Origin: Ignavibacteriota bacterium
GTDB taxonomy: Bacteria; Bacteroidota; Ignavibacteria; UBA10030; UBA6906
Assembly: GCA_003152875.1 (NCBI GenBank)
Contig: PMBF01000073.1
Location: 510 to 45,243, forward strand
Length of the DNA: 44,734 nucleotides
Reading direction: 5' to 3'
Positions within the stretch are counted from its first letter, which is position 1; every line of letters begins with the position of its first letter. Below the pieces are notes generated by a model. It had not been told where the DNA came from and made no database searches. It was given only the letters and a program-made list of their open reading frames with translations. The position numbers and the translations under genes were made by a program. Positions 1 to 41,807 of this stretch are shown here, in pieces.

Positions 1-458
1 GGCGGAATGGCAGACGCAACGGACTTTGACAGGAGCACCTGGGGAGTAATCCCCAGAGTGAATGGTGCCTAATTCGGCGAACCCCCTGGCATCAAGCCGA
101 GGCAACGCCGAGCTAAACGGTGCGCTCAGGTAGCCGGTCCCATCTGCCGGAAAGCGGCAACCCCTCGGGGTGACCTCCGTACCCGGCCGATAAAGAGCGG
201 CCGGCGAAGCCGGTCGTGGAGTGCGCGGGACGCAGCTCTTGCGCTCCGGGTGTGTTGTGAGGCGGCTGGAGAGGGTGAAGCCCGGTCCCTGGCGTGGCCG
301 AAACGTGTAGAGACTATACAGCACCCTCCCGCATGCGAACGGCGTTCCGGTCGGCATGCGGGATGAAGACATAGTCCGGACTACGATGCGAAAGCGACGT
401 AGTGAAGAAAATCCGTTGGTGGGCGACCACCGTGAGGGTCCGAATCCCTCTATCCCCA
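1..458 (+). tRNA. tRNA-Leu(UAA), split by a group I intron, 5' end cut by window
   Basis: The exons are 1-26 and 408-458. Joined, they give the anticodon stem ACGGA/UCCGU with loop CUUAAAA, so the anticodon is UAA and the intron sits after U34. The 3' exon holds a long class II variable arm (GGTGGGCGACCACC), a T arm GAGGG-TCCGAAT-CCCTC, and the 3' acceptor strand TATCCCC plus discriminator A. CCA is not encoded. The 5' acceptor strand (expected GGGGATA-like) lies just before base 1, so the gene is partial. The D-arm sequence GGCGGAATGGCAGACGC is typical of bacterial tRNA-Leu. Confidence 0.93.
27..407 (+). ncRNA. Group I self-splicing intron (IC3-like) in the tRNA-Leu anticodon loop
   Basis: The conserved core is visible. 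P element AATTCGGCGAA is at 71-81 and Q element AACGCCGAGCT at 104-114, pairing CGGCG/CGCCG as P4. R element GTGTAGAGACTA is at 305-316 and S element GAAGACATAGTCC at 365-377, with P7 pairing GACTAT (312-317) to ATAGTC (371-376). P2 contains TGGGGA/TCCCCA. P8 is a 9-bp CCCGCATGC/GCATGCGGG stem (about 328-362). P9 is CTACG/CGTAG with a GAAA tetraloop inside. The intron ends in the expected terminal G at 407. A G+C-rich insertion of about 170 nt lies between Q and R. No homing endonuclease is encoded. Family knowledge: the same insertion site and core are known from cyanobacterial and plastid tRNA-Leu(UAA). Confidence 0.92.
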
Positions 459-563
459 CTGCTGGCATGACTGCGGGTCAGAGTTCATCCCGGAGGTCCG
501 GACTCTTCCCGGGCATGCTTGCGGGGCCGACTGCCGGGATGCCGCCGGTTGGAGATGAAACTC

Positions 564-608: not shown

Positions 609-682
<74 letters not shown>

Positions 683-696
683 CGCCTGCGCCGAAA

Positions 697-770: not shown

Positions 771-2711
771 ATGGACCAGATCACCATCACCTTACCCGAC
801 GGCTCCCGGCGCGCAATCGAGCGCGGGGCAACCGGAAGAACAATTGCCGAGAGCATCGGGCCGCGCCTCGCAAACGACGCGCTCGCTATCGGCGTGAACG
901 GCGAGACGATGGACCTGGCCCGGCCGATCTCCGGGGACGCAGAGGTCCGGATCTACACCTGGAAGGACGACGAAGGCAGGCGCGCGTACTGGCACAGCTC
1001 CGCACACCTCATGGCGGAGGCGATCGAGGCGCTCTATCCCGGGACGAAGTTCGGCATCGGACCGCCGATCGAAAACGGGTTCTATTACGACATCGATCCC
1101 GGCGACAGGACCATGACCGAGATCGAGCTCCGGGCCATCGAAGGGAAGATGCGCGACCTCGCCCTCAAGGACAGCCTCTACCTGCGGGAGGAAAAATCAT
1201 GGGACGATGCCGTCGAATATTTCCGGAAGAAGGGTGACCAGTACAAGCTTGAGCTGCTGGAAGGGTTGAAGGGGCAGAACATTTCATTCTACCACTCCGG
1301 GAACTTCACAGACCTCTGCTCCGGGCCGCACATCCCGTCTGCCGGGAAGATCAAGGCGGTCAAGCTGCTGAGCATCGCAGGAGCGTACTGGCGAGGCAGC
1401 GAGAAAAACAAGATGCTCACCCGCATCTACGGCGTCACCTTCCCGACGCAGAAGGAGCTCGACGAGCACCTGCTGCGCCTGGAAGAGGCGAAGAGGCGCG
1501 ATCACCGGAAGCTCGGCCAGGAGCTCGAGCTCTTCCTCCTCACGCCCAAGGTCGGCGGGGGACTGCCTCTCTGGCTGCCGAAGGGAACGATCATCCGGGA
1601 GACGCTCGAGGGTTTTCTGCGCGAGGAGCAGCGGAAGCGCGGTTACCAGCCGGTCGTTACACCGCACATCGGCAACCTGGACCTCTACCGGACCAGCGGG
1701 CATTACCCGTACTACAAAGACAGCCAGTTCGCGCCGATCAAGATAGGGGACGAGGAGTATCTCCTCAAGCCGATGAACTGTCCGCACCACCATCAGATCT
1801 ATTTGGTGAAGCCGCGCAGCTACCGCGATCTGCCGCTCCGCCTTGCGGAATTCGGAACGGTCTACCGGTACGAGCAATCGGGGGAGTTGAACGGCCTCAC
1901 CCGGGTCCGTTCGTTCACGGTGGACGACTCTCACATGTACGTGAGACAGGACCAGCTCCGGGACGAGCTCTGCGATGTCATCGACCTGATCCAGAGAGTC
2001 TTCACAACGCTCGGATTCAGCGATTTCCGGACCCGCCTCTCGTTCCGGGACCCGAAAAACATGGAAAAGTTCGGGGGGGCGGAGGAGATGTGGGTGCAGG
2101 CCGAACAGGATATCAAGGCAGCAGCCGACCAGATGAAACTGAACTACTATGTGGGCATCGGAGAGGCGGCATTCTACGGGCCCAAGATCGATTTCATGGT
2201 CCAGGATGCCCTGCGCCGGACCTGGCAGCTCGGGACCGTACAGGTCGACTACGTCATGCCCGAGCGCTTCAACCTCGAATATATGGGGAGTGACGGGAAG
2301 AAGCACCGGCCCGTCATCATTCACCGGGCGCCGTTCGGGTCGCTGGAGCGCTTTATCGGAGTGCTGATCGAGCACTATGCCGGGGAATTCCCGGTCTGGC
2401 TCGCCCCTGTCCAGGCCGTCGTTCTCCCCATCACGGACGGCCAGCTTGATTATGCGAGGAAAGTTTCCGATGATATGAAGAACGGGGGCATCCGCACGGA
2501 GCTGGATGACCGGAACGAGAAAATCGGCTACAAGATCCGTGAATGGGAGACCAAAAAAGTCCCCTATATGCTTGTACTTGGGGACAAAGAGCGGCAGGCC
2601 GGCAACGCCGCCCTCAGGATGCACCGCAAGGGGGACCAGGGCGCTGTGGGTGTTGATGAAATCATTCGCCGCATCCAGGAACAAATCGTAGAAAAGCGAA
2701 TCACCATATAG
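771..2711 (+). CDS. thrS: Threonine-tRNA ligase
   Basis: Charges tRNA-Thr with threonine in the cytoplasm. The 646-residue length is normal for bacterial ThrRS. Domains in order: an N-terminal TGS domain (about 1-64), the second editing domain with HSSAHLMAEAI and CSGPHIPSAG zinc-like motifs (about 75-225), the class II catalytic core with motif 2 around YRYEQSGELNGLTRVRSF and motif 3 IIHRAPFGSLERF, then a C-terminal anticodon-binding domain from about 545. It leads the thrS-infC-rpmI-rplT-pheS-pheT cluster. The stop overlaps the infC ribosome binding site, indicating one transcript. No T-box leader was seen in the 42 nt between terminator and start. Confidence 0.97.
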   Translation: MDQITITLPDGSRRAIERGATGRTIAESIGPRLANDALAIGVNGETMDLARPISGDAEVRIYTWKDDEGRRAYWHSSAHLMAEAIEALYPGTKFGIGPPIENGFYYDIDPGDRTMTEIELRAIEGKMRDLALKDSLYLREEKSWDDAVEYFRKKGDQYKLELLEGLKGQNISFYHSGNFTDLCSGPHIPSAGKIKAVKLLSIAGAYWRGSEKNKMLTRIYGVTFPTQKELDEHLLRLEEAKRRDHRKLGQELELFLLTPKVGGGLPLWLPKGTIIRETLEGFLREEQRKRGYQPVVTPHIGNLDLYRTSGHYPYYKDSQFAPIKIGDEEYLLKPMNCPHHHQIYLVKPRSYRDLPLRLAEFGTVYRYEQSGELNGLTRVRSFTVDDSHMYVRQDQLRDELCDVIDLIQRVFTTLGFSDFRTRLSFRDPKNMEKFGGAEEMWVQAEQDIKAAADQMKLNYYVGIGEAAFYGPKIDFMVQDALRRTWQLGTVQVDYVMPERFNLEYMGSDGKKHRPVIIHRAPFGSLERFIGVLIEHYAGEFPVWLAPVQAVVLPITDGQLDYARKVSDDMKNGGIRTELDDRNEKIGYKIREWETKKVPYMLVLGDKERQAGNAALRMHRKGDQGAVGVDEIIRRIQEQIVEKRITI

Positions 2712-25348: not shown

Positions 25349-26959
25349 ATGCCAGTCAGGATCAAGCTGTCGAAAGCAGGTGTCCGGGTAGAGACCAGGG
25401 AGCTTGTCTTCAACGAAGATCTCATCTCGATCGGACGCGAGGCTTCCAACACACTCCCGCTCGTGGATCCGTCAGTCTCCAAGGCTCACGCCCGGATGAC
25501 ACGGCGCGGGTCGGTCTGTCACATTGTAGACCTCCTGAGCACAAATTCCACCTATTTGAACGGCCTGAAGCTGGCTGGGGGACAAGAGTATCCGCTCCAC
25601 AAGGGCGACAAGGTGAGAATCGCGGTCTTTGAGCTGGAGCTCATGGAGATATCTTCCGATCTCCCCTTGAGGTTGGCACATGAGTCTAGCCCGGCGACCG
25701 GGCTGACAACCGAAGGTCTGGCGGAGGACGCGGCAGGAATGCCGCAGGTGCTCACACCAGAAGCAAGAGCGGTGGCCGGGCGTACTCCCAGTCAGGACAC
25801 CCCCGCAGGAGCGGACAGGCAGGGGCAAGTGCCTTCCCCGGCAGAAGTCTCTGAGTTCGCTCTCGAGGCGAAGGACGCTCGCGGCAATCCGATTCAGGGT
25901 GTCGAGGCAGGGAGCTCCCTGGGAGAGAGTCCTGATCCGTCGGGTGGAGCGGAGTCCGTCGCAGAGGTGATGCCTGCGGGGGAACGGTCCTTCCGTGTCG
26001 ACAATGCCGGCTTCAGCCTGGCTCAGTGGTCTGAGCTGAAACAGGAGATTGCTCGACGGCTTGAGGCTTTTGATGTCCGAGAGATTGCCTCGCGCCAGGA
26101 GCGGCTGCTGGCACGGTGCGAGGAGCTGACTGAAGAGAACCGGATACTGAAAGAACAGATCGCAGGTCGCGAAGCCGAGCCTCGGGAGCAGGGCCCGGTC
26201 ATCAAACCGGCGGAGCTGAAGAGGCGGCCCGAGGGAGACCCTCTCGGAATGGGCGAAAGCTCCGGTGGAGGCCCGTCCGTCCGGACCGGAGAGGGTGGGG
26301 CATCAATGAACCCGGCTGATGCGCCCCGGATGGAGCGTCTGCTTAACGCGCTGCTTCAAATGGTACTCAAGCTGACCTCCGGACAGCATTCGTTTCTCTC
26401 GGAATTCCTTGCCAGAACACTATTTCAGGCTTCCGGTAGGATAGCTGGACGATTCCAGTCGGGCGAGGAAGCAATCAGCTACTTTGCCGATCCTTCCCTC
26501 GGCGAAGGGGAATTCGCCGCCCGGCTGGCCGATCTGGAAGGGACGAACCGGCAGATCATCCTCCACGTCATGGGCCTTCTGGAAGGCTACCGGAAGAGCG
26601 TGGATGACGGGGCGCGCAGGCTCCTGGCGCAGATAGACCCTGAATCTATAAGCCGGGAACTGGCGGTAACAAGCATGACCGTCGGGCCGCTTCACATCCC
26701 TTACTCGTCCCTTCCGGTCCTCCTTCACCTGAGGGTCTTCAAAGTGCTCCGGCTCCGGCACCAGGAATTGGTCCAGGAAGACCGCGGCCTCCTCGAAAAG
26801 CGGTTCTTCAGGCCGGGCTTCGTTCACGGGTACGAGGAGTGCGTCTCGGCTGCGGCCAGGGGGGCAGAAGGCATTTCCGGTATTCCGGTGCGCCGTGCTA
26901 CGGCGACCGGCAACGAGTCCCCCGCGCGCAATGACGGGGCTGGCTCGATCAAGCGATGA
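25349..26959 (+). CDS. tagH: T6SS-associated FHA-domain protein (TagH/Fha)
   Basis: It has 536 residues. The N-terminal forkhead-associated domain (about 1-100) has ISIGREASNT, SVSKAHARM and STNSTYLNG, the phosphothreonine-binding residues. A disordered Glu/Gly/Pro-rich linker (about 105-215) and a coiled coil (about 225-290) follow. The C-terminal domain (about 325-500) resembles the TagH/ImpI C terminus (FLSEFLARTLFQ, YEECVSAA). It probably scaffolds the apparatus when threonine-phosphorylated by the divergent kinase. First gene of the T6SS cluster. No strong ribosome binding site. Confidence 0.83.
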   Translation: MPVRIKLSKAGVRVETRELVFNEDLISIGREASNTLPLVDPSVSKAHARMTRRGSVCHIVDLLSTNSTYLNGLKLAGGQEYPLHKGDKVRIAVFELELMEISSDLPLRLAHESSPATGLTTEGLAEDAAGMPQVLTPEARAVAGRTPSQDTPAGADRQGQVPSPAEVSEFALEAKDARGNPIQGVEAGSSLGESPDPSGGAESVAEVMPAGERSFRVDNAGFSLAQWSELKQEIARRLEAFDVREIASRQERLLARCEELTEENRILKEQIAGREAEPREQGPVIKPAELKRRPEGDPLGMGESSGGGPSVRTGEGGASMNPADAPRMERLLNALLQMVLKLTSGQHSFLSEFLARTLFQASGRIAGRFQSGEEAISYFADPSLGEGEFAARLADLEGTNRQIILHVMGLLEGYRKSVDDGARRLLAQIDPESISRELAVTSMTVGPLHIPYSSLPVLLHLRVFKVLRLRHQELVQEDRGLLEKRFFRPGFVHGYEECVSAAARGAEGISGIPVRRATATGNESPARNDGAGSIKR

Positions 26960-27010
26960 GGAGGCTCCTCCCTCTCCGGAAGGCGGCCAGTCGAATCGGA
27001 CGGCAATGAT

Positions 27011-28372
27011 ATGACAGAGCGGAATCGGCAATCACCAGTGTGGTATGAGGGGATGACCCTCGACCCGCACCACTTCCAGCAGTGGGACCGGCACCAGCGG
27101 CACGAGTTGAATATGCGTGCGCGGGCGATTCTGCCGCTTGCCTGGGGGTTCCTCAGCCTCGACATCGACAGGGATACCCTCGCCAACGGGCAGTTCAGCC
27201 TGCGCTCTTGCAGGGGGATCATGCAGGATGGACTCTATTTTGACTGTCCAGGAAGCCACCGTCTCCCCCGGGCGGAAGGGGTAAAGGAGCACTTTCCCCC
27301 CGCGGGTGACAGGGTCAAAGTTTCTCTCGCGCTCCCCCTGGAGCAGGCGCGGAACTGCCAGCTCATCGGGGCCGAAGAGAATCGGCAGGCCCGCTGGATC
27401 GTGGAAAACGCATCGATCAAGGACGACAACACGGGAGCGGATGACCGTGAGATCGGCGTGTGCCAGCCCAATCTCAGGATCCTGTTCGGCGATGAGCCGC
27501 TCGACGACTACACGGCCCTGCAGGTCGCCGAGATTGTGCGTGCCCCTGATGGAGCGTACTCTCTGAGCGACAGGTTCATTCCTCCCTGTCTCTCCATCGC
27601 CGCGTCAGAAAACCTCATGAAGACCGCAAGAAACGTCCTTGAGCTGCTCATCGCCAAGAGTGACTCCCTCTCGGAGCGGCGCAGGCAACAGGCGTCCGGC
27701 CAGGTCGAGTTCACCACGGCCGATGTGACTCTCCTCGGGATTCTTCAGACGGTCAACAGCGCCATCCCGCTTCTGCGCAATCAATTCTCGGCCGGTGCCT
27801 GCCACGCTGAATCGCTCTACTCCACGCTTGCCTCCCTGGCCGGACAGCTCATGACGTATTCGGCCGATCAGGACATGCGTCCCGCCGATCTCCCGGCATA
27901 CGACCATGGGAACGCGGGGGAGTGTTTCATGGCTCTGTCGGGAAAGATCGGACGGCTTCTTGACACGGTGCTGTCTGCCAACTACATCAGGATCCCCATG
28001 GAGAAGCAGAGCGAAAGCCAGTGGGTGGCGCGGTTCACGGACCAGGCCCTTTTCGCCAGCGCACAGTTCTATCTTGCTGCGAGCGGGGAGGTGCCGGAAC
28101 GGAAGCTCGTCGACGAGCTGCCTCTCAGGATGAAGGTGGGGGGAATGAGCGACCTCTCGATGCTGGTGAACGCGGCAATTCCGGGACTTTCCATCAGCCA
28201 TACGGCCAGGCCTCCGGCGGGCCTCCCGTTGCGCCCCGGTCTGCAGTACTACCGCCTGGAGAAAACAGGCCGGCTCTGGGAGTCCATCGTCCGCGACTGC
28301 AACATGGCGCTCTTTGTCCCGGCGGATTTCAAGGGTGTCAGGTTCGAACTGCTGGCAGTCAAATCACACTGA
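27011..28372 (+). CDS. tssK: T6SS baseplate protein TssK
   Basis: Connects the baseplate to the membrane complex. It has 453 residues, normal length. The N terminus SPVWYEGMTLDPHHFQQWDR is the hallmark of the TssK/ImpJ/VasE family. The middle and C-terminal parts (LPLRMKVGGMSDLSMLVNAA and LQYYRLEKTGRLWESIVRD) also match. It is followed 9 nt later by tssL. Confidence 0.95.
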   Translation: MTERNRQSPVWYEGMTLDPHHFQQWDRHQRHELNMRARAILPLAWGFLSLDIDRDTLANGQFSLRSCRGIMQDGLYFDCPGSHRLPRAEGVKEHFPPAGDRVKVSLALPLEQARNCQLIGAEENRQARWIVENASIKDDNTGADDREIGVCQPNLRILFGDEPLDDYTALQVAEIVRAPDGAYSLSDRFIPPCLSIAASENLMKTARNVLELLIAKSDSLSERRRQQASGQVEFTTADVTLLGILQTVNSAIPLLRNQFSAGACHAESLYSTLASLAGQLMTYSADQDMRPADLPAYDHGNAGECFMALSGKIGRLLDTVLSANYIRIPMEKQSESQWVARFTDQALFASAQFYLAASGEVPERKLVDELPLRMKVGGMSDLSMLVNAAIPGLSISHTARPPAGLPLRPGLQYYRLEKTGRLWESIVRDCNMALFVPADFKGVRFELLAVKSH

Positions 28373-28381
28373 GGCAGCCTC

Positions 28382-29053
28382 ATGCAAACGCCAAGGGCAC
28401 AGGGACATCAATCATTGTCTGACGTCTGCAGCGAGTGCCTGATGCTGATCCAGCAGCTCCGGCTTGCAACAAGCATCGGGCCGCAGCTCCGTTCCAGAAC
28501 GCTCGACGTCCTGAAGCGCCTCGAGCGCAATGCCAGGGATGCCGGCTTCGAAAACGACGAGATCCAGAGCGCGAAATTCGCTCTCGTGGCATTCATCGAT
28601 GAAGCCATCACAGGAGGTTCCTTCGCGGAGAAGGAAGACTGGGCTTCGAATCCCCTGCAGGCTGAGCTCTTCGGGTTGAACTATGCCGGGGAGGAGTTTT
28701 TCCGGCGGCTGGGCGACCTCCGCCAGCGCCCCCAGTCCAATGTGCCCCTCCTGGAGGTGTACTACCTCTGCATGGTGCTGGGGTTCAAAGGAAAGTATCT
28801 GCTCGACAGTCCTGAGGTGCTGCGGCACCTGGTCGAGGAAACGAAAGCTGATATCGTCCGTGCAAAGGAACAGCCACTCTCTCCGCACGGCAAACCCCAG
28901 GAGAATCTGGGCGGTGTGGTCGCGCGAAACCTCCCGGCGTGGGTTCTGGCCGCGGGAGCAGGGGGCCTTGGCTTCCTCGTCTTTCTTATCATGTCATGGA
29001 TGATTGGCGGGGCGGCCGATCGGGTGAGGGCGCTCATTGAGCAGGCGGGCTAG
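28382..29053 (+). CDS. tssL: T6SS membrane protein TssL (DotU family)
   Basis: Inner-membrane component that binds TssM and TssK. It has 223 residues. The cytoplasmic helical domain carries FALVAFIDEAITGG and FFRRLGDLRQRPQSNVPLLE, both DotU-typical. A single C-terminal membrane helix (about 182-208, VLAAGAGGLGFLVFLIMSWM) anchors it. There is no OmpA-like peptidoglycan-binding extension, so anchorage to the wall would need another protein. Confidence 0.93.
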   Translation: MQTPRAQGHQSLSDVCSECLMLIQQLRLATSIGPQLRSRTLDVLKRLERNARDAGFENDEIQSAKFALVAFIDEAITGGSFAEKEDWASNPLQAELFGLNYAGEEFFRRLGDLRQRPQSNVPLLEVYYLCMVLGFKGKYLLDSPEVLRHLVEETKADIVRAKEQPLSPHGKPQENLGGVVARNLPAWVLAAGAGGLGFLVFLIMSWMIGGAADRVRALIEQAG

Positions 29054-29195
29054 CTCCCCTGCCCGGTGCCGGCCCTTCCGTGGTGAAATCCAGACCCTGA
29101 CCCTCTGCAGGGCGCATTCCGCCGCGGGGTGGAGAGGGATGTGATGACACAGTGTATAGAAACGTGAAAGGGATGCTGATCGAGGTGAAGACGAT

Positions 29196-32100
29196 ATGGG
29201 GCGCATAGCTGCAATCGTTAAATCCAGGCGTTTCATTTTCACCGCCTGCATGCTGTTCCTTCTCGCCCTGATCTGGCTGACCCTGGGCCTCTGGCTGGGG
29301 CTGGGGATGATGATCTGCCTGCTGGCAACATGCGGGCTGCTCATCCTGTTCAGCGTCTTCCTGCTCGTGGACCAGGCGAAGGCTGCGAAAAATGCCTCGA
29401 ATCTGGAACGGTCGATCTTCGAGCAGAGCGAGGAACACAAGGCCGGCGTTCGTCCTGAGAAAAGGGAGGAGATCGAAAGCCTGCGCCAGCAGCTGTCTTC
29501 CTCGATCCAGAAACTCAAAAAGAGCAGGCTCGGACAGGGCCGTTCAGGCGCTTCGGCGCTCTATGCCCTGCCATGGTACATGATCATCGGACCCCCCGCC
29601 GCCGGGAAAACCACCGCGATCAGGAATTCGGGCCTGGAGTTTCCGTTCGGAACCGACCGTGAGATCCAGGGCGTCGGGGGCACACGAAACTGCGATTGGT
29701 GGTTCTCCAATTCCGCCATCATCCTGGACACCGCCGGCCGGTACATCACGGACGACGACGATCAGGAAGAGTGGGCGGCCTTCCTTGACATCCTCAGGAA
29801 AAACAGAAGCCGCCAGCCCATCAACGGGGTCCTTGTGTGCATCAGTATTGCGGACCTGCTGAATGCCGGCAGCGAGGAGATGGAATGGCATGCCCGGACA
29901 ATCCGCAAAAGGATCGACGAGCTGACCCAGCGGCTGGGCCTCCGGTTTCCGGTCTACCTGGTGTTCACAAAGTGCGATCTGATCAACGGGTTCGTCCAGT
30001 TCTTCGAGGAGTTCAGCCGGGCGCAGCGCGAGCAGATCTGGGGATGCACCTTCGGTGGCGATCAGCTTGATGATCCCAACCCGGGAGCGCTCTTTGAGCG
30101 CGAGTACCAGACCCTGTATGAGGGACTCTTGAGCGCACGGTTTGTCAGGCTCTCCCCCGGGATCAAGAGGGAGGACCGCAGCCTCATCTTCGCCTTCCCC
30201 ATGGAGTTTCTCTCGGCGAGGGAAAACCTCTCGTTCTTCGTCAAGAGGGTCTTTCAGCCCAACCCCTACCAGGAAAGCCCTGCCTTTCGCGGGTTCTACT
30301 TCACAAGCGGCACACAGGAAGGGGTCCCGATCGACAGGGTCATCCAGTCGATGGCCCAGGCCTTCGGTCTGGAGTCCCACGCGAGGCAGGAGGCGGAAAT
30401 CCAGGCCAAGAGCTACTTCATCAAGGATCTCTTCACCGAGGTGATTATTCCCGATGAGCGGCTGGTCAGGCCGACATCCCGGGTTGCGAAAAGCAGGCGC
30501 CTCTTCACAGTCGGGACCGGGGCGGCAAGCGCCCTGGCGCTCGCCATCATTGTCCTGGGCATGTCGCAGGCGTACCTCCGCAGCAAGTCCGGGCTCGATT
30601 CGACCGCGAAGGACGTCGCGGTCTTTCGTACGGCGGCGGCAAACCCCGCCGATCTCATCCCGAGGCTCGACATCCTCCTCAACCGGATAGAGGTGCTGCA
30701 ACATCCTCCCTTCTTTCTGTTCGGCATGGACAAGAGCCAGTCTCTCCTTGCACCCATGCGCAGGCTCTATTTCCGCCAGATCCGGCAGTTCATGCAGACA
30801 GGCCTTCTCCAACCGTTGCAGGAGAGGCTCACCCGGTCGGGAGGGGCCCGGAGCGAATCCTACGACGATCTGAAATCATACCTCCTCCTCACCGCAGAAC
30901 TCCCAAGACTCAAGGAAGACGAGAAGAACCAGCAGTTCCTGAGTCAGCACCTGGCGAAGGTCGTCGAGGCGAAGGATGCGCCGCTGATGCGGCCCCACCT
31001 GGACTACTTCGCCAGGACATTCTCGGATGCCGTGGCCGACAGTCTTGCACAGCCTCTTGCCGCCGACATGCGGGTGATTGCCCAGGCACGCTCGGTTGCC
31101 GGAAAGCTCGACGTGCCGGGGATCTATGAAAACCTCAAGCGGAAGGTGGCCGAGATTCCGGCATATACCGCCTCCGCTCAGGTCTTCATCGGCGGCTCGC
31201 AGGTGCGGGGCACCTTCACAAGCGAAGGGTACAAAGCCCTGGACCAGCTCATTGAGAGCAGTGAATTCATGAACCTCGGCGACGAAGCGAAATGGGTGCT
31301 GGGGCTGGAAGCCAACCAGATGCAGGGAACGCTCCGGAACCCCTCCCAGATCGGCGATTCCCTGCGCGGGACGTACCTCCGGGAGTACGCGGCGGAGTGG
31401 TCCGGGTATCTCACCGGACTGAGGATTGCGCCCTTCGAAAACCTCTCCGACGCGGCGAACCGCATGAGACAGTACGCCGACGCCCGGAGTTCCCCTATCA
31501 AGCTGCTCCTGAAGGATGCCGTCGCGAACACCACATTCGAAAGTCCCCTCAAGAAGGGGCTGCAGGAAAAGACTGGAAAGCTCGGTGCGGCCATCCTCCC
31601 CTCAAACTACGTCGAGAGCGAGTTCGGCGACGTGCATCGGTTCGCACAGAGTGACCTCGACAACGGGAAGCCGGGCGAGATCGACGGGCTCCTGGCACAG
31701 CTTGGCAAGGTCAGCGATGAGCTCGAGCTCCTGAACTCGGCTCCCGCACAGGAGGCAAAAAACCACGCCGCAAATGCCTACGCCGGCAGCGGTCCGCTTG
31801 CCGACGCCCTGCGGGAAATCCGCCGATCCTCCAAGGACAAGGACGAGAGAATGCAGCGGATCCTCGGCAACCTCTTTGAGCAACCGATCCGCTCCTCGTG
31901 GAAAGTCGTCGTCGACCGGTCGGAGGAGTACCTGAACGACACATGGCGCCGCGACGTGCTTGAACCGTACCGCCAGCTTTCGGCATACTTTCCGTTCGAC
32001 GCCACGGGGCAGGATGCTCCCCTGACGGAGGTGGCTGCAATCTTCGCGGACAACGGCAAGCTCCCGAAATTCATCGACGGCGAGCTGAAGCCCTTCGTTG

Positions 32101-32666
32101 ACGAGGACCACGGCTGGGATCCAAGGCCGTGGGAAGGTGCGGACGGAATCGTCCTGTCGCCTGCCGCAAGGAACGCTCTGGCGCAGGCCAGGACCCTGAA
32201 GCAATCGCTCTTCCGCGGTCCCGATCCCGGCATGAAGGTCGACATCAGGCTGGAGCCCATCGTGCGCCCAGACGGATCCGGCTCCATCGACAAGGTCTGC
32301 GTGAAGGTCGGAGGGAAAGAGCAGTGCTGGAAGCTGGAGGATGGAAAGCCTCCGGAATTCGTTTTCGACTGGCCCGGCGACGGCGGATGCAGCATACGCC
32401 TTGTGAAGGAGTCAGGGAAGGTCCTGGGACTGTTCGGGTCCTCCGAAGACAAGGTCTTCGACGAGAAGTCGTTCGATGGGGGATGGGCCCTCTTCCGGCT
32501 CGTTGGAGCCTCCGCGAAGTCGACGGGGACAGGAAGAGCAGAGGTGCGGTGCATCTGGACCTTTAAGGAAGGCATCGTGGTCAGTTGCGTGATCAAGACC
32601 GACAAGGGGTTCAATAACCCCCTTGCGCGAAACATCGGCATCGATTTGCCGGAAAAGCTGAACTGA
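29196..32666 (+). CDS. tssM: T6SS membrane protein TssM (IcmF family)
   Basis: Large inner-membrane component spanning the periplasm. It has 1156 residues, the full size. Two N-terminal membrane helices (about 8-28, 30-52) and a third (about 437-459) flank the cytoplasmic NTPase-like domain, where Walker A is intact (GPPAAGKTTAIRNSG, about 131). The large C-terminal periplasmic part holds the IcmF-related domain and ends in a beta-rich domain. The 142-nt gap before it shows no feature. It sits between tssL and tagF. Confidence 0.95.
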   Translation: MGRIAAIVKSRRFIFTACMLFLLALIWLTLGLWLGLGMMICLLATCGLLILFSVFLLVDQAKAAKNASNLERSIFEQSEEHKAGVRPEKREEIESLRQQLSSSIQKLKKSRLGQGRSGASALYALPWYMIIGPPAAGKTTAIRNSGLEFPFGTDREIQGVGGTRNCDWWFSNSAIILDTAGRYITDDDDQEEWAAFLDILRKNRSRQPINGVLVCISIADLLNAGSEEMEWHARTIRKRIDELTQRLGLRFPVYLVFTKCDLINGFVQFFEEFSRAQREQIWGCTFGGDQLDDPNPGALFEREYQTLYEGLLSARFVRLSPGIKREDRSLIFAFPMEFLSARENLSFFVKRVFQPNPYQESPAFRGFYFTSGTQEGVPIDRVIQSMAQAFGLESHARQEAEIQAKSYFIKDLFTEVIIPDERLVRPTSRVAKSRRLFTVGTGAASALALAIIVLGMSQAYLRSKSGLDSTAKDVAVFRTAAANPADLIPRLDILLNRIEVLQHPPFFLFGMDKSQSLLAPMRRLYFRQIRQFMQTGLLQPLQERLTRSGGARSESYDDLKSYLLLTAELPRLKEDEKNQQFLSQHLAKVVEAKDAPLMRPHLDYFARTFSDAVADSLAQPLAADMRVIAQARSVAGKLDVPGIYENLKRKVAEIPAYTASAQVFIGGSQVRGTFTSEGYKALDQLIESSEFMNLGDEAKWVLGLEANQMQGTLRNPSQIGDSLRGTYLREYAAEWSGYLTGLRIAPFENLSDAANRMRQYADARSSPIKLLLKDAVANTTFESPLKKGLQEKTGKLGAAILPSNYVESEFGDVHRFAQSDLDNGKPGEIDGLLAQLGKVSDELELLNSAPAQEAKNHAANAYAGSGPLADALREIRRSSKDKDERMQRILGNLFEQPIRSSWKVVVDRSEEYLNDTWRRDVLEPYRQLSAYFPFDATGQDAPLTEVAAIFADNGKLPKFIDGELKPFVDEDHGWDPRPWEGADGIVLSPAARNALAQARTLKQSLFRGPDPGMKVDIRLEPIVRPDGSGSIDKVCVKVGGKEQCWKLEDGKPPEFVFDWPGDGGCSIRLVKESGKVLGLFGSSEDKVFDEKSFDGGWALFRLVGASAKSTGTGRAEVRCIWTFKEGIVVSCVIKTDKGFNNPLARNIGIDLPEKLN

Positions 32667-32722
32667 GGTCCGACCCCGCATGATCTTGCGGGTGGCGCGT
32701 CCACCAAGAGTACAGGTGCTGC

Positions 32723-33706
32723 ATGTCCGTTGCAGGTTCTTCGGCATTATGTTTCGGGAAGCTGCCGTCCCATGCCGATTTCGTCCGCTTTAATGCCGGT
32801 GGCCCGGAACTCCATGCCCTGGACGAGTGGCTGCAGCGCGGCCTGTCCTTTGCGCGGACACGGACGGGCTGGGAACAAGATTTTGAACGGTCGCCTCAAT
32901 ACCGCTTTTTCTTTCATCCGGAAAACGCCGATCACTTCCTGACGGGAGTGCTTCAGGCAAGCCAGGACAAGAGCCACCGGCACTATCCGTTTCTGGTCGC
33001 CCTGTCCATGGATCGGAGATGTTTTCTGGACAGCCAGCTGTGGCTGGCGCCTTTCGTGCTCTCGGAGTTCTACGACCGGGCGCAGCAGCTTGTGCGTCGT
33101 GCGGAGGGGGGAATGGAGATGCGGGAGATCGCCGACCAGACACAGGCCTTGAACGGCCCTCTGCCGGACCAGGGCTCTGCGGAATCCCGGTATCGCGCCG
33201 ACTATCTCGACGTCCTTCCGGCTGAGAGCTTTTGGCGGGAGCTGTTCGGGAGCTTCGGAGACTCTCGGAAGTACCTGGTGTTGAAGAATCTTGCCGATGT
33301 CCTCCTGCCATTCCGGGGCCGGACCTCCGCCCGGATAAATCTCGGGCTCAGGTTTCCCCTGGCGAATTCCGGGAGTCCCGTGGAATGCTCCGTCTGCTTC
33401 TGGCTAAACCTCTCATTCATCCTCCTGGGCTCGCTGCCCGGCCGCCCCTTTCTGTTCTGGAGTCTGCCCCGGGAGACGCTGCCCGGCTATCTGTTCCTCT
33501 TCTTCCGGCAACCATCGGCCCGGCACTTCTTGCAGCTCCTGAAACCGGAGGCCGACAACGAGACGATTTGCGCGGTGGACGAAGAAGGAAGGGAGAAGGC
33601 GGCGACGGCAAGCCAGTTGATCGTCCCCGGCTATCGGGTGCCCCTTGAAGCCGGAAAGGAGCCGCTGAGCCGTTTCCTGAGCAGTGTGATGAGCGCAACG
33701 ACATGA
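32723..33706 (+). CDS. tagF: T6SS-associated protein TagF
   Basis: It has 327 residues. The N terminus ALCFGKLPSHADFVRFNAGG and RHYPFLVALSMD are diagnostic of the TagF (ImpM) family. Known: TagF is a post-translational repressor of T6SS activity in Pseudomonas, acting through Fha, and can be fused to a PppA phosphatase. Here the C-terminal half (about 170-327) is a different domain without phosphatase metal motifs. Its presence beside a kinase and FHA protein supports a threonine-phosphorylation switch. Confidence 0.9.
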   Translation: MSVAGSSALCFGKLPSHADFVRFNAGGPELHALDEWLQRGLSFARTRTGWEQDFERSPQYRFFFHPENADHFLTGVLQASQDKSHRHYPFLVALSMDRRCFLDSQLWLAPFVLSEFYDRAQQLVRRAEGGMEMREIADQTQALNGPLPDQGSAESRYRADYLDVLPAESFWRELFGSFGDSRKYLVLKNLADVLLPFRGRTSARINLGLRFPLANSGSPVECSVCFWLNLSFILLGSLPGRPFLFWSLPRETLPGYLFLFFRQPSARHFLQLLKPEADNETICAVDEEGREKAATASQLIVPGYRVPLEAGKEPLSRFLSSVMSATT

Positions 33707-33833
33707 GGCGAACAGGTCAGACCGCATGGTCGGATCTTGGTGCCAGACTTCGATGTACGTGGTAGTGTTCAGACCTTGGTGCTGGTCCGAGGTGTGAGAC
33801 ATGCTGAAGCAGTGGTGAACAGGGTGAAAAAGT

Positions 33834-35750
33834 ATGGCGGACGAACAGCTCAATACTGATAGCCAGGCGCCTCTCGAACCCGCGGGGGCGACAGCGGGAC
33901 CTGTAGGGATTTCGCTATCCCCCTTGCTCCTGGCTGTTCGCACTCCCATCCCGGGAACGAACCCGTGCGGCAGTGATGTCTCCTACGATGAAGACTACCT
34001 GGCGATCAAGGCGGAGATCGACAAGCTGGGCACGGTGAGCGGCCACGTCGACCAGGAACGCGCCTCGGAGCTGCGGCAAATGATGGACGCCACCCGGGAG
34101 ACCGTGAGGAAAGCCGACCGCGCGGAAGCGGAGAAACAGCTCGAGCAGCGCGGGAGCGTGGTCCGATCGACGGGCGGACCCGATTACGAGCTCATCAGAG
34201 AGCGGGCGGCCAGAATCCTCTCCGGGAAATCGAAGGACATCCGTGTCGCGAGCTATCTCTGTTTCGCGCTCTGGCAGCGGCAGCAGTTTCCCGGACTGGC
34301 AGAGGGACTGTCCGTCATCGACATCCTCGTGAGCCAGTTCTGGGACGGGCTCTTTCCCCCGAAAAGCCGTCCCAGCGCGAGGAAGACCGCTATCGATTTC
34401 CTCACCTCGAAGCTCGGCGAAAACGTTGAGTATGCGGCTGTGAAGGCGGATGACCGCCAGCCTCTCGAGCGTGCCAAGGGGGTCCTGGCCGCCTTGCAGA
34501 TCCAATTCGCCGGAAAGATGACCGCAGATCCCCCGTCCCTCCTCGGGCTCGTGCAGGCAGTAGAGAAGTGCTTGGGAAGGATTCCCCGGCCCGCGCAGGT
34601 GGCCAACGCCACCGCGGCGGCGGTGAATCCGGAGGCCCCGGGCACGACTCCTGCGTCGCCTTCGCCGGTCGCGACGGAGGCGACACTCCGAACGGCACAG
34701 GACGCCTTCGACCTGATCAAGAAGGGGGTGAAGTTTCTCCGGGAACAGAATCGCCGTAACCCGTCGCCGTACAGGCTTCTCAGGAGCATCCGCTGGGACC
34801 CGCTTGCCGCGGAGCCGCCCAATGAAAACGGCAGGACAAAGATCGAGCCGCCGCCCGCGCAACGGCGCAACTTCCTCTCAGCCCTCGCCGATGCGGCAGA
34901 ATGGAACAAGCTTCTCGACGAATGTGAGGCGAGCCTCGGGGAGCCGGGCTACCATCTCTGGCTGGACATGCAGAGGCTGACGGTCATGGCCCTCGATGGA
35001 TTGGGGACGGATTTCCTGGTGGTTCGCTTCTCGGTGTTGACCGAAATGGCCGTGCTGGTCAAACGCCTTCCGAGACTTGCCACGCTCACGTTCGTCGACG
35101 GCACACCCCTTGCGAACCCCGCCACTTCCGATTGGATCGCGGAATCGGTGTCTCCTCTCATGCAGGCTCCGGGTTCGGGCGATGCCACCCCCAGACGGCG
35201 ATTCGCCGACGACGAGCTCGAGAACCAGTTCGCGGAGGCAAAGAAGATGCTGGATACAGGAGACCTTGCCGGGGCTCTGGCCCATCTCCAGGACGGCGCC
35301 CGCGCCGACAACTCCCGCAAGTCGACCTTCCGGCGACGGCTTGCCTCGGCGGCTCTCTGCCTGCGCGGCAGCCAGCCCGCCATCGCGCGTCCTCTGCTCG
35401 AAGAGCTGGAGGAGGAGATCAAGAGGCATTCTCTCGACGAGTGGGAGCCGGCTCTCGCGCTCGACGTGTGGACACATCTGCACAAGTGCTATGGATTGTT
35501 GACGGCCGGACCTTCCACACCGGGCAAGCAGGCCGTGCAGCAGCAGGCCGACCGGGTCTTTGAGAGGATCTGCCGCCTTGACATCGGCTATGCCCTTGAA
35601 AGCACTGGGGCGAAGACTGTGCGCAAGGGGGCTCCTCCGTCCGGAATCCCACAGAGCGGGACCGGTCAGGCCGGCCCCGCGCCCCCCGGCGAAAAGCCTC
35701 CGGCCGGCAACGGAACGAACAAAGAACCAACTGAGCATCCATCATCATAA
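33834..35750 (+). CDS. tssA: T6SS protein TssA
   Basis: Coordinates sheath/tube polymerisation at the baseplate or distal end. It has 638 residues. The ImpA_N domain (about 25-165) has PIPGTNPCGSDVSYDEDY and LSVIDILVSQFWDGLFPPKS, which is typical. The C-terminal half (about 330-590) has a VasJ-like helical region. The extreme C terminus is Pro/Gly/Lys-rich. A stretch of Thr/Ala/Pro at about 262-280 acts as a linker. tssB follows 11 nt later. Confidence 0.93.
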   Translation: MADEQLNTDSQAPLEPAGATAGPVGISLSPLLLAVRTPIPGTNPCGSDVSYDEDYLAIKAEIDKLGTVSGHVDQERASELRQMMDATRETVRKADRAEAEKQLEQRGSVVRSTGGPDYELIRERAARILSGKSKDIRVASYLCFALWQRQQFPGLAEGLSVIDILVSQFWDGLFPPKSRPSARKTAIDFLTSKLGENVEYAAVKADDRQPLERAKGVLAALQIQFAGKMTADPPSLLGLVQAVEKCLGRIPRPAQVANATAAAVNPEAPGTTPASPSPVATEATLRTAQDAFDLIKKGVKFLREQNRRNPSPYRLLRSIRWDPLAAEPPNENGRTKIEPPPAQRRNFLSALADAAEWNKLLDECEASLGEPGYHLWLDMQRLTVMALDGLGTDFLVVRFSVLTEMAVLVKRLPRLATLTFVDGTPLANPATSDWIAESVSPLMQAPGSGDATPRRRFADDELENQFAEAKKMLDTGDLAGALAHLQDGARADNSRKSTFRRRLASAALCLRGSQPAIARPLLEELEEEIKRHSLDEWEPALALDVWTHLHKCYGLLTAGPSTPGKQAVQQQADRVFERICRLDIGYALESTGAKTVRKGAPPSGIPQSGTGQAGPAPPGEKPPAGNGTNKEPTEHPSS

Positions 35751-35761
35751 GGAGAACTGCC

Positions 35762-36265
35762 ATGGCAGAGAGTTTCCAAAAAGAGAAACCGCCCGCAAGG
35801 ATCAACCTCTTCCTGGAGGTCCTGAAGGGCGACGCGAAGAAAAAAATGGAATTGCCGCTGCGGCTCCTTGCCCTCGGCGATTACAGCCAATCGGGCTCCA
35901 GCGTCCCGCTGTCCGAGCGGGAGAAAATCAACATCAATAAGGACAATTTTTCCCAGGTCATGAAATCGATGGATCTCGGCCTCGAGCTTGCCGTGCCGGA
36001 CCGCCTAAAGGGGGGGGACGCGGAGACCAAGGTCAAGATCAAGTTCGACGATTTGAAATCGTTTGAGCCGGAGGAGGTGGCGAGGCAGGTGCCCCAGCTT
36101 GCCAAACTGCTCTCAACACGCTCGCTGCTTCAGGACCTGCGCAATCGCGCGATCAGCACGAATGAATTCCGCAAAGAGCTGGAGCGCATTGTGAAGGACA
36201 AGCATGCGCTGGCTGAGCTCCGTGGCGAACTGGACAAGCTCGTACCGCCGAGCCGGCCGGAGTAG
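35762..36265 (+). CDS. tssB: T6SS contractile sheath small subunit TssB (VipA)
   Basis: Forms the contractile sheath with TssC. It has 167 residues, the usual size. The family start INLFLEVLKGDAKKKMELPL and the central FDDLKSFEPEEVARQVPQL are clear. An excellent AAGGAG lies before the ATG (TCATAAGGAGAACTGCCATG). Confidence 0.97.
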   Translation: MAESFQKEKPPARINLFLEVLKGDAKKKMELPLRLLALGDYSQSGSSVPLSEREKININKDNFSQVMKSMDLGLELAVPDRLKGGDAETKVKIKFDDLKSFEPEEVARQVPQLAKLLSTRSLLQDLRNRAISTNEFRKELERIVKDKHALAELRGELDKLVPPSRPE

Positions 36266-36317
36266 CGTCTGCGGGAACCGCCAGACGCCGTCTGGACCAT
36301 CAAGAAGGAGACAAGCA

Positions 36318-37835
36318 ATGCCCGAACAGAAAGAAGCGGCGGCCCCTCAGGCTGCCACGCAGACGACCGAATCGAAAGAGGGCAGACTGAGCATCCTGCT
36401 GGACAAGGTCAATGTTACGCTGCCGACCTCCACGGTCGCCATTGACCATATCGCCGACACAGACAAAGGAGCCGTGGTCACGGCGGCCCTGCGGGTGTTC
36501 GTCGACGCGATCAGCGAGCTGCAGGCTCCCCTCGAGAAGATTGACAAGAACCTCCTCGACGGCCTGATCGCGAAGCTGGATTCCAAGCTGAGCGAACAGC
36601 TCGACGAGATCATGCACGCGCGGCAATTCCAGGCGCTGGAGGCCGCCTGGCGCGGCCTGAAGTTCCTCGTCGACCGGACGGACTTCCGGAGAAATGTCAG
36701 GATCGAGATGATCGACGTCTCGAAGGACGCACTGCGGGAGTCGTTTGAAGACGCCCCGGAGCTGATCCAGTCGGCCCTCTACAAGCAGGTCTACAGCGGG
36801 GCCTACGATCAGCCGGGCGCTGACCCCTACGGCGCGATGATTTCCAACTACGAGTTCGAAAACACGGCCCAGGACATCTCCCTGCTCCAGGAGGCGGCCA
36901 AGGTGGCCTCGTCGGCGCATTGCCCGTTCATCGGCTCCGTCGGCCCGCGCTTCTTCGGCAAGAACTCCATGGAGGAATGGAAGAAGATTCCGGACCTGAA
37001 GGCATGGATGGAGACCGCCGAATACACCAAGTGGCGATCGTTCCGGGAATCCGAGGACTCACGCTACATCGGGCTCACGTTCCCGCGCTTCATGGTCCGG
37101 CTCCCGTATGGGCCGGACACGATCCCGGTGAAAGGGTTCAATTACACCGAGAACGTGAAGGGACCCGATCACGAAAAATACCTCTGGGGAAACGCCAGTT
37201 TCTCCTTTGCCACCAATATGGTCCGCTCGTTTGTCAACGATGGATGGTGCGTTCAGATCCGCGGCCCGCAGGCCGGCGGAACCGTTGACAACCTTCCGGT
37301 CCATCTCTACGACGTGGGGAAGGGGAAGCAGATGAAGATCCCTACCGAAGTCCCCATCGACGAGACGGCGGAGTTCACCGCGGCGAACCTGGGCTTCATC
37401 CCCTTTAGCCACTACCAGGGGCGCGACTATGCCTGCTTCTTCTCGGCCAACTCGGCGCAGAAGCCGGCGGAATATGACCTGAAGGAGGCCACCGCCAACA
37501 GCCGGATCAACGCCCGGCTCCCGTACATCTTCCTGGCATCGCGCATCGCCCACTATCTCAAGGTGCTCCAGCGGGAAAATATCGGCGCGACCAAGGACCG
37601 GACGAAGATCGAGAAGGAGCTTAACACGTGGGTCAAGAGCCTGATCATCGGGATCAAAGACCCCTCGGAGGCGCAGATCGCCAAGTATCCGCTGCGGGAC
37701 GCCCAGGTCAAAGTGTATGACATCGAGGAAAACCCGGGCTTCTACCGCGTGGAGATGATGATCATGCCGCACTTCCAGATAGAGGGGATGGATATCAGCC
37801 TGTCCCTGGTCGGCAAGATGCCAAAAGGAAAGTAG
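36318..37835 (+). CDS. tssC: T6SS contractile sheath large subunit TssC (VipB)
   Basis: Main sheath protein, 505 residues. ATG 36318 has AAGGAG 7 nt upstream; an in-frame start at 36204 lies within tssB and is rejected. Typical motifs are present: FQALEAAWRGLKFLVDRTDF, AAKVASSAHCPFIGSVGPRF, FPRFMVRLPYGPDTIPVKGF, and the C-terminal VKVYDIEENPGFYRVEMMIM. The C terminus is close to the ClpV-binding region. Confidence 0.97.
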   Translation: MPEQKEAAAPQAATQTTESKEGRLSILLDKVNVTLPTSTVAIDHIADTDKGAVVTAALRVFVDAISELQAPLEKIDKNLLDGLIAKLDSKLSEQLDEIMHARQFQALEAAWRGLKFLVDRTDFRRNVRIEMIDVSKDALRESFEDAPELIQSALYKQVYSGAYDQPGADPYGAMISNYEFENTAQDISLLQEAAKVASSAHCPFIGSVGPRFFGKNSMEEWKKIPDLKAWMETAEYTKWRSFRESEDSRYIGLTFPRFMVRLPYGPDTIPVKGFNYTENVKGPDHEKYLWGNASFSFATNMVRSFVNDGWCVQIRGPQAGGTVDNLPVHLYDVGKGKQMKIPTEVPIDETAEFTAANLGFIPFSHYQGRDYACFFSANSAQKPAEYDLKEATANSRINARLPYIFLASRIAHYLKVLQRENIGATKDRTKIEKELNTWVKSLIIGIKDPSEAQIAKYPLRDAQVKVYDIEENPGFYRVEMMIMPHFQIEGMDISLSLVGKMPKGK

Positions 37836-37904
37836 CAGAGGACCACATCCCGCTGGATTCCTTCCCGCGGGGACAGAAACCATCTTCCAGAAAGGAGCAT
37901 CAGT

Positions 37905-38390
37905 ATGCCCACTCCATCATACGTCTGGCTCAAGGACGACAAGGCGGGAGACATCAAGGGTTCCGTCCAGATCCATGGGCGCGAGGGAAGCTGCGAGGTC
38001 ATGGAGTTCCACCACGACCTTCACATCCCGACGGATCCGCACACGGGAAAACTGACCGGCGTTCGCATGCACAGCCCTGTCGTGATTATCAAGGCCTATG
38101 ATTCCGCCTCCCCGTATCTCTACAAGGCGTGTTGCGAGGGCCAGACCCTGAAGGAAGTGACCATCAAGTGGTACGCCATCGATGACACAGGCACGGAAAA
38201 GGAGTACTTCATCCACAAGCTCGAAGGCGTGAAGGTCGCCGCCATGAAGGCCCAGATGCCGAATACGAAGGACCCGACGAAGGAACGGTACGTCCATCTG
38301 GAAGAGGTGTCTCTGGTCTACGGCAAGATCACCTGGACGTTCGTCGACGGAAACGTCGAATATGTGGACGAGTGGACGGCGCAGAAGTAA
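37905..38390 (+). CDS. hcp: T6SS tube protein Hcp (TssD)
   Basis: Hexameric tube subunit and effector carrier, 161 residues, usual size. Characteristic blocks are YVWLKDDKAGDIKGSVQIHG, PVVIIKAYDSASPYLYKACC, and VHLEEVSLVYGKITWTF. AAAGGAGCATCAGT precedes the ATG. It is separated from tssE by a 128-nt spacer with a strong palindromic hairpin. Confidence 0.96.
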   Translation: MPTPSYVWLKDDKAGDIKGSVQIHGREGSCEVMEFHHDLHIPTDPHTGKLTGVRMHSPVVIIKAYDSASPYLYKACCEGQTLKEVTIKWYAIDDTGTEKEYFIHKLEGVKVAAMKAQMPNTKDPTKERYVHLEEVSLVYGKITWTFVDGNVEYVDEWTAQK

Positions 38391-38432
38391 CCCACCCGGT
38401 GAACGGGAGGCCGCTTGCGAGAACGCAATGCC

Positions 38433-38480
38433 GGATGAATGGAGGGGATCCCGGTATACCGGGATTCCACCCCTTCACCC
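38433..38480 (+). repeat. Palindromic hairpin between hcp and tssE
   Basis: A perfect 18-bp palindrome ATCCCGGTATACCGGGAT (38448-38465) is flanked by further imperfect complementarity (GGATGAATGGAGGGG against CCACCCCTTCACCC). It forms a long hairpin about 40 nt after the hcp stop. No T run follows, so it is more like an mRNA-stabilising or REP-type element than a terminator. It could let hcp mRNA accumulate above the downstream genes. Confidence 0.6.
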
Positions 38481-38518
38481 GGAGACACCGTGCCCGGGAG
38501 GGCGCCGGAGAACGTGGA

Positions 38519-38947
38519 ATGGATGCTGGGCTCATCGATCTCCTGCTCGGTCATTTTCTTGACGGGCAAGCTGTGGCCGACGGAGATCCCGCGCGGAACA
38601 GGCTTTCGAGCATCGTCGATAACCTGAGCCGCCTCTTCAACACCAGGCGCGGATCCATCGCCCATCTTCCGGACTTCGGTCTCCCGGATATTTCACAGGT
38701 CTACCGCGACCTGCCCTACTCCATCGAGGGCCTCCGCGGGGCGATCAGGAGCGTGGTTGAAAAGTACGAGCCCCGCCTCCACCGCGTCCGTGTCGAGAAG
38801 CTGGAAAAAGACAAGGACGAGGAGCACGACATGCGGGTGTCCTTCATCGTGATGGGGGAGCTCGAAAAGGGCCAGCGGGTGCAATTCCAGACCACATTCA
38901 CTTCAAACGACCTGGCGGAAGTGCGCCCGTGGCGCAAACCGTCCTGA
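38519..38947 (+). CDS. tssE: T6SS baseplate protein TssE (gp25-like)
   Basis: It has 142 residues. The start at 38519 has GGAG 9 nt upstream and removes about 49 nonsense-like residues of the longer frame. A gp25-like fold is indicated by LSSIVDNLSRLFNTRRGSIA, LPDFGLPDIS, and ESI-type YSIEGLRGAIRSVVEKYEPR. The C-terminal beta hairpin ends with FTSNDLAEVRPWRKPS. It is followed 13 nt later by tssF. Confidence 0.92.
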   Translation: MDAGLIDLLLGHFLDGQAVADGDPARNRLSSIVDNLSRLFNTRRGSIAHLPDFGLPDISQVYRDLPYSIEGLRGAIRSVVEKYEPRLHRVRVEKLEKDKDEEHDMRVSFIVMGELEKGQRVQFQTTFTSNDLAEVRPWRKPS

Positions 38948-38960
38948 GCGCCGAGCCGCC

Positions 38961-40739: not shown

Positions 40740-40781
40740 CAGGGGCCGTGCTCAAGATTCTCGTCAGGTCAACGGTCTTCC

Positions 40782-41792: not shown

Positions 41793-41807
41793 ACGACCGG
41801 GAAACCT

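Follow-up and report, generated by a model that had tools for sequence, protein, structure and literature searches.

A group I intron in the tRNA-Leu(UAA) gene of an Ignavibacteria genome and its probable horizontal gain

The interrupted tRNA-Leu(UAA) locus

The window analysed here is a stretch of 44,734 nucleotides from a 3.96-Mb assembly (C90:510-45243). At its 5' edge, the anticodon of a tRNA-Leu(UAA) gene is broken between U34 and A35 (U34^A35) by a group I (IC3-type) intron of 381 nt (Table 1). The 5' exon ends with ACGGACUU at position 26 and the 3' exon begins with AAAAUCCGU at position 408. Both splice-site signatures of group I introns are present, namely a U-G wobble (U26-G33) at the 5' splice site and a G as the terminal intron nucleotide. 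The P1 arrangement, in which the exon CUU faces a GAG guide, is identical in all 24 same-site sequences extracted (24/24). Insertion point and P1 together assign the intron to the tRNA-Leu(UAA) family, and they confirm that, as proposed in the initial annotation, U34 is the position also occupied in cyanobacteria and plastids.

On its 3' side, the interrupted gene is contiguous with tRNA-Val and thrS. The order tRNA-Leu(UAA), tRNA-Val, thrS is conserved and recurs in Ignavibacteria, where the tRNA-Leu is intronless (many MAGs). No 16S rRNA gene was found in the host genome and taxonomy was therefore based on ThrS, whose best matches are from Ignavibacteria MAGs (up to 79%). Thus, the host belongs to the FCB bacteria, as had been surmised from the sequence, and not to the Cyanobacteria, named there as the refuting case. 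Further downstream, the window of this Ignavibacteria genome carries a type VI secretion gene cluster (25349-44558; TagH-like FHA protein, TssM, TssH/ClpV).

The 5' side is less complete. An NN scaffold gap lies directly upstream of the window (508-509 of the contig) and the 5' strand of the acceptor stem (about 8 nt) is missing at the window edge. This truncation accounts for the lack of an ARAGORN call for the intron-bearing tRNA-Leu(UAA). In the cloverleaf of the spliced tRNA, the 3' half and the anticodon stem are intact, the 5' acceptor strand is unassembled and position 55, where tRNAs normally have an invariant U, is a C (window position 440); the relatives have U there. This C may be due to an error, reflect a polymorphism or indicate decay. 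The assembly yielded 28 intronless tRNAs, among which there is neither another tRNA-Leu(UAA) nor a tRNA-Asn. If the interrupted gene is the sole copy, splicing is therefore needed to read UUA. It should be noted that the MAG is 97% complete and split into 120 contigs, so that a second tRNA-Leu(UAA) could be missing from the assembly.

Table 1. Features of the intron-bearing locus (window coordinates)
Feature	Position	Strand	Basis
5' exon of tRNA-Leu(UAA), truncated, D arm to U34	1..26	+	26 nt identical to intronless G006 and G012
Group I (IC3-type) intron, terminal G407	27..407	+	Sequence, RF00028 match, covariance model, covariation
P1: exon CUU 24-26 with guide GAG 33-35	24..35	+	Same-site comparison, 24 sequences
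P2 hairpin, GUAA loop	39..56	+	Folding, covariation
P3 5' strand GGUGC, partner GCACC 321-325	64..68	+	Folding; double changes in 5/5 pairs
P4-P5-P4': UCGGCG 74-79 with CGCCGA 106-111	74..111	+	100% paired, 17 introns
P6: GC 112-113 with GU 305-306, holds large peripheral domain	112..306	+	Covariation, covariance model
G+C-rich insert within P6, 177 nt	121..297	+	P6 length comparison, composition
P7: GACUA 312-316 with UAGUC 372-376, encloses P3' and P8	312..376	+	100% paired, 17 introns
P8	328-332 with 358-362	+	Five window-derived pairs, only 57.6% paired across introns
P9 hairpin ACUACG/CGUAGU, GAAA loop 390-393	380..403	+	Folding
3' exon of tRNA-Leu(UAA), A35 to discriminator A	408..458	+	Sequence, relatives
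tRNA-Val(GAC), follows tRNA-Leu in the conserved Leu-Val-thrS cluster	609..683	+	ARAGORN, synteny
thrS, threonyl-tRNA synthetase, anchor for synteny and taxonomy	771..2711	+	Best hits

A group I core with an enlarged P6 domain

In the search suggested at the outset, the Rfam Intron_gpI model (RF00028) matches positions 17-400 with an E-value of 3.5e-6 (800-nt search), but the score of 31.8 bits is below the gathering score of 50 bits. The low score is due to the 177-nt insert in P6, where 171 nt are left unaligned. Three plasmid introns (L123, L124, L121) likewise score less than 50 bits with RF00028. The shortfall is therefore a limit of sensitivity and not a defining feature of the intron. 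A covariance model of tRNA introns (R1) gives 87.9 bits (E 8e-23), a value that is not independent since the window intron is one of the 17 training sequences. With a model built from 15 other tRNA-Leu(UAA) introns, the match is broken in two by the P6 insert, 35.4 bits (E 5.9e-10) being obtained for the 5' half and 13.6 bits for a separate segment.

Comparative evidence for the core is provided by the 17 introns. With the P7 pseudoknot included, 89.8% of the cells are paired vs 71.5% in shuffles, and 112 double-change cells are observed vs 38 in shuffles. P6 is, like P4 and P7, 100% paired, P3 is 89% paired, and all core pairs form in the window. Thus, the P2-P7 core is supported by covariation, and it contains the P3-P4-P6-P7 elements and the P3/P7 pseudoknot by which group I introns are defined. 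P7 is the guanosine-binding helix of these introns. The window intron also conforms to almost every invariant column in the alignment of tRNA introns, and the whole precursor is more stable than its shuffles (z -3.8). It has the short core devoid of P5abc, with conserved J4/5, J6/7 and P7, that marks the IC3 class of bacterial tRNA introns. The Rfam match, the tRNA-intron model, covariation and the splice signals thus agree with the IC3-like core originally proposed.

The absence of an endonuclease, also stated at that time, holds: no homing endonuclease is encoded in the intron, where the longest ORF has 38 aa, and the P6 insert contains neither an ORF nor an endonuclease remnant. The intron therefore lacks the encoded endonuclease that characterizes homing group I introns. 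An Rfam search found no other convincing family inside it.

The peripheral G+C-rich insertion, initially estimated at about 170 nt, is a 177-nt insert in P6 with a G+C content of about 70% (sliding windows). It brings the P6 region to 191 nt; over the 99 introns measured, the median is 21 nt and the next largest value 111 nt. The insert was considered as a repeat or mobile element, an idea rejected because no second copy exists in the genome or the family and no internal repeats are found. It was also considered as a selected structure, and this too was rejected, its stability alone being that of shuffles (z -0.5). The insert is regarded as a tolerated peripheral expansion of P6. Length variation in this region is known from the trnL introns of Nostoc, where P6b ranges from 50 to 126 nt in Collema-type strains (PMC4476775).

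Related introns in Bacteroidota, plasmids and phages

Exact empty sites are found close to the host. In two genomes of the same family (G006 and G012), the same tRNA-Leu has its exons joined exactly at the insertion point; the 5' side is identical in both (26/26) and the 3' side is 92% and 76% identical, respectively. These empty sites imply a lineage-specific gain, or repeated loss, through which the absence of the intron in relatives could also have arisen. In a sample of 391 genomes of the class, the host genome (G000) is the only one with a Leu(UAA) intron on a non-phage contig. The other match in the class (G069:C5, L332/L333) is a contig of a T4-like phage that lies in the bin of an Ignavibacteria genome. 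This contig encodes a major head protein, a portal, a head maturation protease and a DNA polymerase, and has a tRNA array that includes a tRNA-Leu(UAA) with a group I intron (L108 1501-1684).

At the scale of the phylum, tRNA introns of this kind occur in 28 of a sample of 395 genomes. The idea that the intron is unique within the phylum was overturned by this Bacteroidota-wide search, since nine further loci, typed by ARAGORN and/or exon motif, are tRNA-Leu(UAA) genes (L307-L311, L313, L319, L321, L324). Other Bacteroidota loci (L312-L331, L272, L276) have group I introns in tRNA-Arg(UCU), -Leu(CAA), -Leu(UAG), -Gln and -Asp; in one family, the intron-bearing tRNA-Arg(UCU) recurs between tRNA-Pro and tRNA-Cys. 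Introns in tRNA-Leu(CAA) were observed in Ignavibacteria (L110 and L113), one of which (L113) encodes a PD-(D/E)XK endonuclease (Pfam PDDEXK_5, E 5e-50).

The host genome itself carries a second group I intron, in tRNA-Asn(GUU) (G000:C62:10399-10714, minus strand; L005), which scores 104.5 bits. This gene is the only tRNA-Asn detected in the genome, and by our reading its intron is inserted at U35^U36. Introns of tRNA-Asn occur in about 20 genomes of the class; on several of these Ignavibacteria introns, ARAGORN tRNA-Thr labels were rejected as misread tRNA-Asn. In the example inspected (L094 1229-1549), the P1 loop contains an ORF whose C-terminus is HNH-like (Pfam HNH E 0.004, short of the cut-off), and the HNH-like motif was also seen in several other tRNA-Asn introns.

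One review lists tRNA introns for cyanobacteria, alpha- and beta-proteobacteria only (PMC4033280), and according to a review of 2014, all phage introns known at that time were within protein genes (PMC3984707). The tRNA-Ile2 introns of Acidovorax and Burkholderia are added by another paper (PMC8450103). Outside the phylum, we found same-site tRNA-Leu(UAA) introns in Mycetohabitans, in Vallotia, on a Bradyrhizobium plasmid and on plasmids of the pCTX-M3 type, and, among viruses, in the jumbo Agrobacterium phage Atu_ph07, in a 735-kb phage and in IMG/VR contigs. With the Mycetohabitans intron as query, 1,277 plasmid records were matched, mostly at 60-80% identity. In pCTX-M3 (NC_004464.2), a tRNA-Leu(UAA) gene that lacks annotation and is interrupted by a group I intron (L123 1487-1792) is located some 0.7 kb away from aac(3)-IId; this copy occurs in 635 of the 5,426 complete E. 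coli genomes, is mostly plasmid-borne and is unannotated among the matches listed. Sequence similar to it is found on more than 1,200 proteobacterial plasmids. The insect symbiont Candidatus Vallotia cooleyia has kept a tRNA-Leu(UAA) intron on a 66-kb plasmid (L127), 82% identical to the Mycetohabitans copy. In the IMG/VR contigs (L129-L248), many tRNA genes were called with introns at group I cores; they correspond to Leu(UAA), Leu(CAA), Arg(UCU), Tyr, Lys, Thr, Ile(CAU) and Ser.

A BLAST search of phage records with the window intron gave no match. Against plasmids, it matched only the P4-P6 segment of Mycetohabitans, to which positions 71-116 are 92% identical over 46 nt.

Origin of the intron

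No other core exceeds about 64% identity to that of the window intron. Its identity to the core of the Anabaena sequence used here is only 57%, vs 60-64% for many others. In a maximum likelihood tree, the window intron is placed with the Azoarcus-type tRNA-Ile introns and next with the Mycetohabitans tRNA-Leu intron (bootstrap 88 and 72). When more Bacteroidota are included, support for this inner placement drops to 39-57, and the window intron belongs to a 27-taxon clade of bacterial and viral-contig tRNA introns (bootstrap 87). The intron lies apart from Anabaena in these trees, whose cyanobacterial side is this single sequence, but a constraint grouping the two is not rejected by the AU test (p-AU 0.47). 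Constraints joining the window intron to the tRNA-Asn introns (p-AU 0.23) or to Mycetohabitans are not rejected either. The core phylogeny called for by the initial annotation thus sets the intron among tRNA introns of bacteria and viral contigs, and the constraint tests are compatible with a link to the cyanobacterial intron as well as with its absence.

Taken together, these data indicate that a presumably autocatalytic IC3 tRNA-type group I intron was very probably gained horizontally by an Ignavibacteria lineage in its native tRNA-Leu(UAA). Horizontal gain is well supported by the empty sites, and no donor is singled out by the core trees or AU tests. If Ignavibacteria had received the cyanobacterial/plastid trnL intron directly from a cyanobacterium, this would account for the identical insertion site and CUU/GAG guide, and the Anabaena constraint is not rejected by the AU test; such a transfer is nevertheless unlikely, given the lower core identity to the Anabaena sequence and the position of the window intron in trees, amid bacterial and viral-contig introns. 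An origin within the lineage can also be envisaged, in which an Ignavibacteria tRNA-Asn intron reverse-spliced into tRNA-Leu and gained the Leu guide. The host genome has such a tRNA-Asn intron, both introns have a GUAA L2 loop, AACGUG before P7 and similar P8/P7' surroundings, and their grouping is not rejected by the AU test. However, the Asn introns differ in guide and in splice position, contain an additional hairpin between P7 and P3' and have an A-U pair in P4, and they form a clade of their own away from the window intron, which makes retargeting quite improbable.

The initial annotation had left open either horizontal spread or a deeper origin. Inheritance from an ancestor of Cyanobacteria and Bacteroidota, followed by loss nearly everywhere, could explain why the same site is occupied in several phyla. 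It would require very many independent losses, and is hardly credible in view of the exact empty sites in the same family, the intronless tRNA-Leu at the same locus in many Ignavibacteria MAGs and the same-site introns on plasmids and phages. Finally, with the 5' end unassembled and U55 replaced by C, the locus might be a chimeric assembly or a tRNA gene that has decayed, to which the adjacent NN gap and the weak Rfam score could also point. Against this, the exons match the tRNA-Leu of the same family, the 3' side runs into tRNA-Val and thrS in the conserved order, the core elements and the anticodon stem are all intact and no second Leu(UAA) was found; such an artefact is very improbable. 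Horizontal gain is therefore preferred: it is supported by the same-family empty sites, the sole non-phage occurrence among the 391 genomes and the same-site introns on plasmids and phages, whereas the deeper origin is unsupported. Moreover, since the same insertion exists in many unrelated bacteria, plasmids and phages, the window reveals a new host of a widespread element and gives no evidence of a special ancient origin. A non-cyanobacterial host, singled out at first as unusual, is not remarkable in itself, as shown by the nine other loci of the phylum and by proteobacteria.

We infer that splicing would follow the group I pathway. The P3-P9 core would fold after transcription. An exogenous guanosine bound in P7 would attack after U34, at the U26-G33 wobble of P1, and the freed 3'-OH of U34 would then attack after G407, joining U34 to A35. 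The exons would be held together by pairing of the anticodon stem, and the insert, as a peripheral extension of P6, would be tolerated by the core. As no endonuclease is present, the intron most likely no longer moves and is passed on as a passenger. As to donor and transfer route, we infer that the intron may have been drawn from a pool of tRNA introns moving among bacteria, plasmids and phages. A broader view, possible but rather doubtful, is that intron-bearing tRNA-Leu(UAA) genes cross phyla as phage or plasmid cargo, and that chromosomal introns like the one described here, possibly including those of cyanobacteria and plastids, are captures from this mobile pool and not vertical relics.

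The tRNA-Leu intron is the textbook case of an intron regarded as older than plastid endosymbiosis. With clean empty sites and a filled one in a single family, and with plasmids and phages carrying introns at the same position, the alternative of repeated gain from a mobile pool can be put to the test. In addition, such genes escape standard tRNA callers and the Rfam cut-off, which leaves gaps in the tRNA inventories of many MAGs, plasmids and phages.

Comparison with known introns underlines both common and distinct features. A tRNA-Leu(UAA) intron of a gamma-proteobacterium, reportedly described by Vepritskiy et al. in J Bacteriol in 2002, is a precedent for a non-cyanobacterial host. The introns of Mycetohabitans, Vallotia, the Bradyrhizobium plasmid and the IncL/M pCTX-M3-type plasmids have the same tRNA, site and guide as the window intron, but they lack the large P6 insert and have a longer P9 region. 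Those of Atu_ph07, the 735-kb phage and the T4-like phage contig also have the same site and guide, but are phage-borne, A+T-richer and shorter (205-278 nt). The other Bacteroidota tRNA-Leu(UAA) introns have the same anticodon and phylum; however, they belong to other classes, their cores are at most 60% identical and they are devoid of the 177-nt insert. The Azoarcus tRNA-Ile(CAU) intron and its viral-contig relatives (L143, L182) are nearest in the core trees (bootstrap 88 in one and 39 in the other) and have the same P4 helix, but they reside in another tRNA at another splice position. Finally, the cyanobacterial/plastid trnL intron, represented by Anabaena, has in common with the window intron the U34^A35 position, the CUU/GAG P1 with its U-G wobble, the IC3 core and a variable size of the P6 periphery (PMC4476775). 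The window intron differs from the Anabaena type by its host phylum, its core (only 57% identity to the Anabaena sequence), its 177-nt G+C-rich insert and its lineage-specific presence.
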